This document shows, piece by piece, positions 10,552-11,199 of a DNA stretch of 64,000 bases (position 1 is its first letter; each line of letters starts with the position of its first letter). The notes below the pieces were generated by a model. It made no database searches. It was not told where the DNA came from and saw nothing but the letters and a program-made list of their open reading frames with translations. The position numbers and the translations under genes were made by a program. Origin of the DNA: Ardenticatena maritima (GTDB lineage: Bacteria > Chloroflexota > Anaerolineae > Ardenticatenales > Ardenticatenaceae); the NCBI RefSeq assembly GCF_001306175.1, contig NZ_LGKN01000006.1:62001-126000 (forward strand). The letters run 5' to 3'.

Positions 10552-10579
10552 TTGACAGAAATTCCTATTCTCTTATAAT
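10552..10579 (+). promoter_or_regulatory. Consensus sigma70 promoter for leader and CxxC protein
   Basis: A perfect TTGACA (10552-10557), a 16-bp spacer and a perfect TATAAT (10574-10579) lie in an AT-rich patch unlike the surrounding DNA. Transcription should begin near 10586. Confidence 0.85.
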
Positions 10580-10608
10580 GTAGCGTGTTCGAGGAAAGGG
10601 TTGAGCAG

Positions 10609-10662
10609 ATGACACGAGTGAGTGAACTTAGCAACCAGCGCCGTACATACGAAAGGGCGTGA
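10609..10662 (+). CDS. 17-residue leader peptide
   Basis: A short ORF, MTRVSELSNQRRTYERA, with an excellent ribosome site (GAGGAAAGGG at 10591-10600, 8 nt before the ATG). Its stop codon (10660-10662) lies inside the left arm of the terminator hairpin at 10655-10683. A ribosome reaching the stop would cover that arm and should block terminator formation. There is no run of a single amino acid, only an Arg pair, so it is not a classical amino-acid attenuator. No homology is recognised. The position between a strong promoter and a terminator suggests a regulatory leader; the peptide itself may have no function. Confidence 0.55.
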   Translation: MTRVSELSNQRRTYERA

Positions 10663-10689
10663 GCACGATGGGCTCTCACGCCCTTTTTT
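10655..10689 (+). terminator. Intrinsic terminator/attenuator in the leader
   Basis: GGGCGTGAG pairs perfectly with CTCACGCCC across an 11-nt loop, extended by AAA/TTT pairs and a run of six T. It lies about 70-100 nt after the predicted transcript start and about 45 nt before the next ORF. It either ends a ~105-nt RNA or attenuates the CxxC gene. Confidence 0.85.
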
Positions 10690-10734
10690 CTTTGGTCAAA
10701 GCCCATCATGAAGAAAGAAAGGATGCGGCAGCCT

Positions 10735-11100
10735 ATGTTTGGATCAAAAACCCCCTTCTTATTTCCGCATGAAAGCGTTCCGCACCTTCGTGATTGTCGT
10801 TCCGACAAGGCCTGGGTTGAACTTGTTGACCACGTTGCCACCCTTCCCGAAACACATGAAGACAGCCTGGCGTTTCAGCTGATGGTGATTCACATGGCTG
10901 GATGCCTGCGCTGCACCAACTACAAAGCCAATTTGGGATGCACGGTCTGCTCACAACGCGCTGTCCGCAACACCAAAGCCCCCATGAGCACCATCATGCG
11001 CTGGTTCAAACGCGCCCAAAATGAGGTGCGCGAGTTTCTGGCAACATTCACTGAAGAAAATAAAGCCGTCGCCGGCGGCGATGACAGACGCGCCGCTTAA
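10735..11100 (+). CDS. Small hypothetical protein with paired CxxC motifs
   Basis: A 121-residue protein of unknown function. The central segment has C57-x2-C60 and C69-x2-C72 (AGCLRC, GCTVC), a possible zinc or Fe-S site or a redox pair. The C-terminal part (STIMRWFKRAQNEVREF) is likely helical and basic. There is no signal peptide or membrane segment. ATG 10735 has AAAGG about 12 nt upstream; ATG 10708 in the same frame is possible but has no ribosome site. It is the only gene between a strong promoter/leader/terminator unit and a second strong terminator, so it is an independently controlled single-gene unit. Confidence 0.7.
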   Translation: MFGSKTPFLFPHESVPHLRDCRSDKAWVELVDHVATLPETHEDSLAFQLMVIHMAGCLRCTNYKANLGCTVCSQRAVRNTKAPMSTIMRWFKRAQNEVREFLATFTEENKAVAGGDDRRAA

Positions 11101-11119
11101 AGAAAGTCCAGACAAATTG

Positions 11120-11145
11120 AACCCCGCCTGCGAAGAGGCGGGGTT
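11120..11145 (+). terminator. Intrinsic terminator after the CxxC protein gene
   Basis: AACCCCGCCT / AGGCGGGGTT form a perfect 10-bp stem with a 6-nt loop, followed by TATTTG. It lies 19 bp after the stop. Confidence 0.85.
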
Positions 11146-11199
11146 TATTTGTTGCGGTGGTTTTTATTCGGAACGCATGAGGCCTTCGCGCCAGGCTGA

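Follow-up and report, generated by a model that had tools for sequence, protein, structure and literature searches.

Results

A conserved leader in front of a cysteine-rich gene

In the window (the whole 64-kb stretch of DNA that was analysed) from a 3.56-Mb Ardenticatena-like genome of the Chloroflexota, we found a real, conserved leader with the attenuator layout of the direct ribosome-masking kind, located before an unnamed gene in a little-studied phylum. On balance, comparison of related leaders led us to lean slightly toward a ribosome-masked transcription attenuator that would control this cysteine-rich gene in cis. The parts, their overlap and the conservation of their layout were directly observed. 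The promoter, the ORF reaching the terminator, the intrinsic terminator and the structural gene followed each other in that order:

10552..10579, + strand: sigma70-type promoter TTGACA-16-TATAAT, perfect hexamers in the sequence
10592..10599, + strand: leader Shine-Dalgarno site AGGAAAGG, identical in L004
10609..10662, + strand: leader ORF MTRVSELSNQRRTYERA, 17 codons (ATG at 10609, stop UGA at 10660-10662)
10655..10663, + strand: terminator left arm GGGCGTGAG, which holds the leader stop; reaches 10652 with A-U pairs
10664..10674, + strand: terminator loop CACGATGGGCT between the arms
10667..10674, + strand: loop segment GATGGGCT, complementary to 10700-10707 (8 bp)
10675..10689, + strand: terminator right arm CTCACGCCC (10675-10683) and U6 tract (T6 at 10684-10689)
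10700..10707, + strand: candidate pseudoknot partner AGCCCATC in the near-invariant spacer
10717..10722, + strand: Shine-Dalgarno site GAAAGG of the cysteine-rich gene, at a long spacing of 12 nt; GAAAGG(G) in most of L004-L009
10735..11100, + strand: cysteine-rich gene, 121 aa (MFGSKTPF...), CxxC-x8-CxxC, from a family without a name
11118..11147, + strand: terminator after the cysteine-rich gene; the transcription unit is a single gene here

The TTGACA-16-TATAAT promoter claimed in the earlier note was borne out base by base, with the -35 hexamer at 10552-10557, a 16-nt spacer and the -10 hexamer at 10574-10579, and the transcript was predicted to start at about 10586. The pattern TTGACA-N16-18-TATAAT had a single match in the window and none in 100 shuffles. 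Genome-wide, there were 191 matches versus 63 for the reversed control pattern, and therefore this promoter type was really used in the host; the genome-wide controls were samples of promoters. Since the gatC gene upstream of 10552 was on the minus strand, the promoter could serve only the rightward unit. In L004, the closest counterpart of the window leader (L003), the hexamers were conserved and the 16-nt spacer between them had diverged.

The ribosome site and the 17-codon ORF ending in the terminator left arm were both present as claimed, with the UGA at 10660-10662 inside that arm. The terminator itself, described earlier as a 9-bp stem with a T run, needed only a minor correction, namely that the stem was longer if A-U pairs were counted (9 G/C-rich bp, extended to 12-13 bp by the A-U pairs on its flanks; -20.4 kcal/mol). 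The window held a handful of terminators this strong, and only at 10655-10689 did an ORF with a Shine-Dalgarno site end within the left arm. Among 57 other promoters of the host genome, 10 had a hairpin with a T-run 33-170 nt downstream, and a Shine-Dalgarno-led ORF ending in a hairpin arm was found at none of them, except for readings across tRNA genes. Leader terminators were common in this genome, and the overlap with an ORF set this one apart. A second candidate frame, starting from the ATG at 10668 in the terminator loop, was in frame with the gene in L004 and not here, and was rejected.

A search of Rfam gave zero matches at threshold. The Termite-leu RNA (RF01730) reached 27.3 bits at 10648-10721 (E 0.0004), below its gathering threshold of 51 bits; this sub-threshold match was driven by the GGGCG hairpin and the GAAAG stretch, and the second hairpin of the model was poorly formed.

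Three other terminator-like leaders were seen in the same genome (G000). At L157 (G000:C4:576678-577028), a promoter was followed by the hairpin AACGCGCC-GACC-GGCGCGTT with T6 and then a cysteine-desulfurase-like gene (MEKRYVYLDHSATT...). At L138 (G000:C3:951010-951360), the hairpin GGCCAGC-CTGC-GCTGGCC with T6 lay between a promoter and a gene for a cold-shock-like protein (GTVKWFNREKGYGFISP). L140 (G000:C3:1046458-1046808, minus strand) had a promoter and a start-proximal terminator-like hairpin GAGGGCGCACGTTCC-AGAT-GGAACGTGC..T7, after which a Met- and Cys-rich ORF, MTTYATPTIQTHAAAHMMMCMCCMHGVCH..., was read by eye; this ORF may be a Cys/Met-sensing leader peptide.

The cysteine-rich protein

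The small CxxC gene placed after the terminator by the earlier note was found at 10735-11100, behind a 45-nt spacer. Its four cysteines were invariant across 46 aligned relatives, and this pattern made a metal site at C57, C60, C69 and C72 likely. The AlphaFold model was confident and all-helical (pLDDT 87.6). Pfam, NCBIfam, PHROGs and both the sequences and the folds of the PDB yielded no credible match, and family and structure searches recognised no RNA-binding domain. We discarded the best structural match, Cdc37 (Z 3.6), which was meaningless for a helical protein, as well as the Pfam HCV_env and ephrin-receptor matches, which looked like cysteine-pattern artefacts, and a c-type cytochrome match that covered a single CxxC stretch only.

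The gene was present in 210 of 298 genomes of the class (~70% of those sampled), and its synteny with gatC extended within the genus only. In the host order, a second copy (L039 at G000:C4:634195; L036-L041) was located directly after a tRNA Trp-Gly-Gln cluster, and in other families (L059, L061, L077, L098) a tRNA-Lys gene with a T-run lay between the promoter and the cysteine-rich gene. These neighbourhoods raise the possibility of a link between the family and tRNA or translation. In L005, L006, L008 and L009, a long membrane-protein-like ORF (...LVLTWPT..VVDRQDPLLNTWIM..) followed the gene on the same strand; it was absent from the genome of the window.

Leaders in the host order

All seven sampled genomes of the host order possessed the cysteine-rich gene (7/7), and six leaders were readable (L003, L004, L005, L006, L008 and L009), representing five diverged lineages when L003 and L004 were counted as one. 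Each of the six had a TTGAC-type promoter, an ORF ending in GCG-UGA at the terminator, and then the cysteine-rich gene. The ORFs were 17, 17, 15, 19, 18 and 14 codons long, respectively, and encoded MTRVSELSNQRRTYERA, MTRSSESSNQRREYERA, MLLFPNYTNRMNKRA, (M)TLVMFSTGENTRKVHTRA, MFVKLHLDDGNLMSGKRA and (M)YNLGFPPLIANWA. Across genera these peptides shared only their end, mostly Arg-Ala-stop, and upstream of the hairpin the leader sequences were almost wholly different. Shine-Dalgarno sites were AAGGAAAG in L008 and GAGGAGGGG in L009; L005 was without a good one. In dinucleotide-shuffled leaders, with GTG and TTG starts allowed and the length threshold set after looking, an in-frame ORF of at least 14 codons arose in 17-23% of cases per leader (P 0.17-0.23). 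The product of the per-leader P values gave a joint P of ~4e-4 for the five lineages.

The earlier note had made its reading depend on conservation of the leader in related genomes: the architecture was conserved in all six, and the peptide sequence was not. It had also correctly stated that the leader contained no amino-acid run; MTRVSELSNQRRTYERA had no run of codons for a single amino acid, and the peptides of the relatives differed. Since the leader peptide diverged so freely, the signal would not be a specific peptide or codon run.

Two members of the order were particularly informative. In L006, GCG-UGA was still present immediately ahead of a rearranged hairpin (GGGCG...CGCCC), an argument that the ORF end itself is what is maintained. 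The genome G006 had two close copies of the cysteine-rich gene, one (L009) with the leader ORF and hairpin and the other (L035) without a leader; in the latter almost the same promoter (TTGACAAAG...GTGGTATAATTATGTT) was directly followed by the gene's own ribosome site. This natural deletion suggested that the attenuator is a separable unit.

The comparison of L003 with L004 showed where change had been tolerated. Fourfold sites of the cysteine-rich gene differed at 18 of 51 positions (35%), the far upstream region differed by 32% and the region after the gene by 45%. The hairpin and T-run had 0/36 differences, and the spacer from the terminator to the start codon had 2/43 together with one 1-base indel. 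The terminator was therefore flanked by constrained sequence on either side, a pattern that control in cis would predict. The Shine-Dalgarno site and the ATG were kept, and most of the 10 bases between them differed without an indel. The ORF had zero indels and seven changes in three codons, all of them nonsynonymous (V>S, L>S, T>E). Thus, the frame was kept and the peptide was not, the pattern expected if the ORF is translated and its peptide sequence is unimportant, with the caveat that 17 codons make a small sample.

The left arm of the hairpin beyond the host order

The left arm GGG-N-GUGAG(G) before the cysteine-rich gene was conserved in three orders. In the order of G011 it was found in three families (L010, L049, L051, L069, L076, L080), and the hairpin lay there at a fixed 46-49 nt from TTGACA, at the 5' transcript end, with no room for an ORF. 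A third group (L012, L014, L048) had the left arm before a structured leader without a consistent ORF. The right arm drifted by one-sided G-U wobble, with one change in L005, two in L009 and two in L012/L014, and the left arm stayed unchanged. These patterns indicated that the left arm is kept by some constraint additional to pairing and to the stop codon. Since the same arm occurs without the ORF, masking could not be the sole or original reason for its conservation, and it was mainly this conservation beyond pairing and stop codon that kept our confidence in masking from rising above a slight preference.

Four of these leaders (L010, L049, L051 and L080) carried a GTG-TGA start-stop in the left arm; because L069 and L076 lacked it, it was rejected as the shared feature. 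Many other families of the class (e.g., f10, f8, f4 and f5) had the cysteine-rich gene without such a hairpin. Unrelated hairpins with T-runs stood between the promoter and the gene in L027 and L079 (family f42) and in L022 (family f35); the hairpin loops of L027 and L079 had GCAGAGGGT in common.

A candidate loop pairing

The loop segment and its downstream partner (10667-10674 with 10700-10707) could pair over 8 bp. The pairing was kept in L004 with a U-G pair and in L008 with one two-sided change (GAGGGGCT:AGTTCCTC), and it was shorter in L009 (CAGATG:CATCTG). The P values per lineage were 0.005 (L003), 0.025 (L008), 0.06 (L009), 0.125 (L005) and 0.35 (L006), and the 8-bp pairing in L003, L004 and L008 was matched by 168 of 500 shuffles, a comparison of three alignable sequences only. 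Because the polymerase makes the partner only once it has passed the U-run, this arrangement would be compatible with an H-type pseudoknot in the readthrough RNA, which we regard as a lead.

No antiterminator helix was evident in the folds of the six leaders. One candidate for a conserved helix, the 5-bp GCGCC:GGCGU of L003/L004, was dropped because inspection by eye did not reveal it in L008 or L009. The folds also paired the U-run with the GAAAGG site of the gene, which may be a mere consequence of a U-run and a purine-rich site.

Discussion

Proposed mechanism

From these comparisons we infer translation of the leader, regulated readthrough and the kind of signal involved. By default, transcription from the strong promoter would stop at 10655-10689 and yield an RNA of ~105 nt. 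If a ribosome were on the last ORF codons or on the UGA at 10660 as RNA polymerase reached the U-run, its footprint would extend over the left arm into the loop, so that the hairpin would not form and transcription would read through into the gene. What would be sensed is the ribosome occupancy of the leader end relative to the polymerase, not one amino acid; the missing peptide conservation accordingly favours occupancy, or release at the UGA in general, as the signal. Possible inputs would be a pause of the polymerase, the initiation rate, or ribosomes that are slowed or are released slowly at the UGA. As a tentative addition, the loop of the terminator may form base pairs with 10700-10707 once the polymerase has read through.

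In E. coli, termination dropped from ~90% to <10% when a stop codon was placed 5 bp before a terminator, and it was restored when the two lay farther apart (PMC4824070). The earlier note had proposed that a ribosome finishing the ORF masks the left arm and so couples leader translation to readthrough. This interpretation was partly supported, since the layout was kept in the order and masking would fit these experiments. Terminators in the first ~100 bp of a coding sequence usually escape ribosomes, translation being uncoupled yet (PMC4824070). The early position of the terminator here argues that termination would be the default and that a pause or fast initiation would be needed for readthrough.

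Alternative explanations

The conservation of the left arm in three orders, with or without an ORF, may instead mean that the hairpin is a binding site, where a protein or another RNA recognises GGG-N-GUGAG and sets termination or translation. The binder would perhaps be the cysteine-rich protein itself, in a feedback loop, and the ORF would be an addition or accident in one order. The one-sided G-U changes in the right arm opposite a constant left arm (L005, L009, L012/L014) and, in the order of G011, the constant distance of 46-49 nt between TTGACA and the hairpin would both be explained in this way. However, the host order kept the ORF in 6/6 leaders beyond chance, with a Shine-Dalgarno site and spacing, the cysteine-rich protein had no recognised RNA-binding domain, and many families (f10, f8, f4, f5) were without the hairpin. 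We considered a binding site unlikely, and still the most serious competitor of ribosome masking. A combined scheme appeared doubtful to us: a peptide-independent translation sensor, responding to free ribosomes or UGA release, together with a loop pseudoknot on the readthrough RNA and a left arm that has a different trigger in the sister order.

That nothing is sensed, and that a constitutive leaky terminator simply lowers the expression from a strong promoter, was brought to mind by the 10/57 other promoters with terminator leaders, including those of the cold-shock protein and the cysteine desulfurase. A fixed leak, however, needs no Shine-Dalgarno-led ORF ending in the stem and kept in five lineages, and it leaves the almost invariant spacer unneeded, so we regarded it as improbable. 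The lowest standing was given to the ~105-nt RNA (~10586-10689) as a trans-acting small RNA, with the gene expressed by leakage or otherwise. The compact promoter-terminator unit would fit a small RNA, which the earlier note had named as an alternative, and the comparison gave it no support: the 3' spacer past the terminator was as conserved as the hairpin in the two nearest species, the RNA shared almost nothing outside the hairpin between genera, the unit preceded orthologues of the same gene with gatC upstream in the genus only, and Rfam had no match at threshold. A small RNA was thus highly improbable.

Relation to known attenuators

In the pyrBI operon of E. coli (pyrL leader), ribosomes that follow RNA polymerase closely through the leader act directly on an intrinsic terminator and suppress it (PMC5021804, PMC4824070). 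This terminator is part of a 135-bp leader gene, and control operates via UTP-sensitive pausing. The leader proposed here would likewise suppress its terminator directly by translation and would not need a sensing codon run; unlike in pyrBI, its 17-codon ORF stops inside the left arm and no pyrimidine gene is downstream. The E. coli ampC attenuator, which responds to growth rate, has a leader ORF so short that its start codon is directly followed by the stop; this ORF overlaps the terminator, and readthrough is favoured when a ribosome sits there. The overlap of ORF and terminator is common to both, and ribosome availability would be the signal here as well, whereas the ORF has 17 codons rather than a start-stop.

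The order of promoter, leader peptide, intrinsic terminator and structural gene is that of the trp/his-type attenuators. In contrast to them, the leader had no regulatory codon run, an antiterminator was not seen in the folds, and no biosynthetic role is known for the gene. Moreover, in amino-acid attenuators more than 20 bp separate the leader stop from the terminator (PMC4824070), whereas the two overlap here. The antibiotic-sensing attenuators of vmlR and bmrB-bmrCD also combine a uORF with an intrinsic terminator, and in vmlR the uORF sequence can vary and the attenuator still works (PMC9226507, PMC4191407). However, these systems use antiterminator and anti-antiterminator hairpins, none of which were seen here, and the cysteine-rich gene is not a recognised resistance factor.

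If the proposed masking is true, attenuation by direct ribosome masking, for which E. coli has been the main source of examples, would be extended to the Chloroflexota. The natural set of leaders with an ORF, leaders with the hairpin only and a leaderless copy makes the role of the ORF directly testable. The leader would then also provide a first handle on when the four-cysteine protein is needed.
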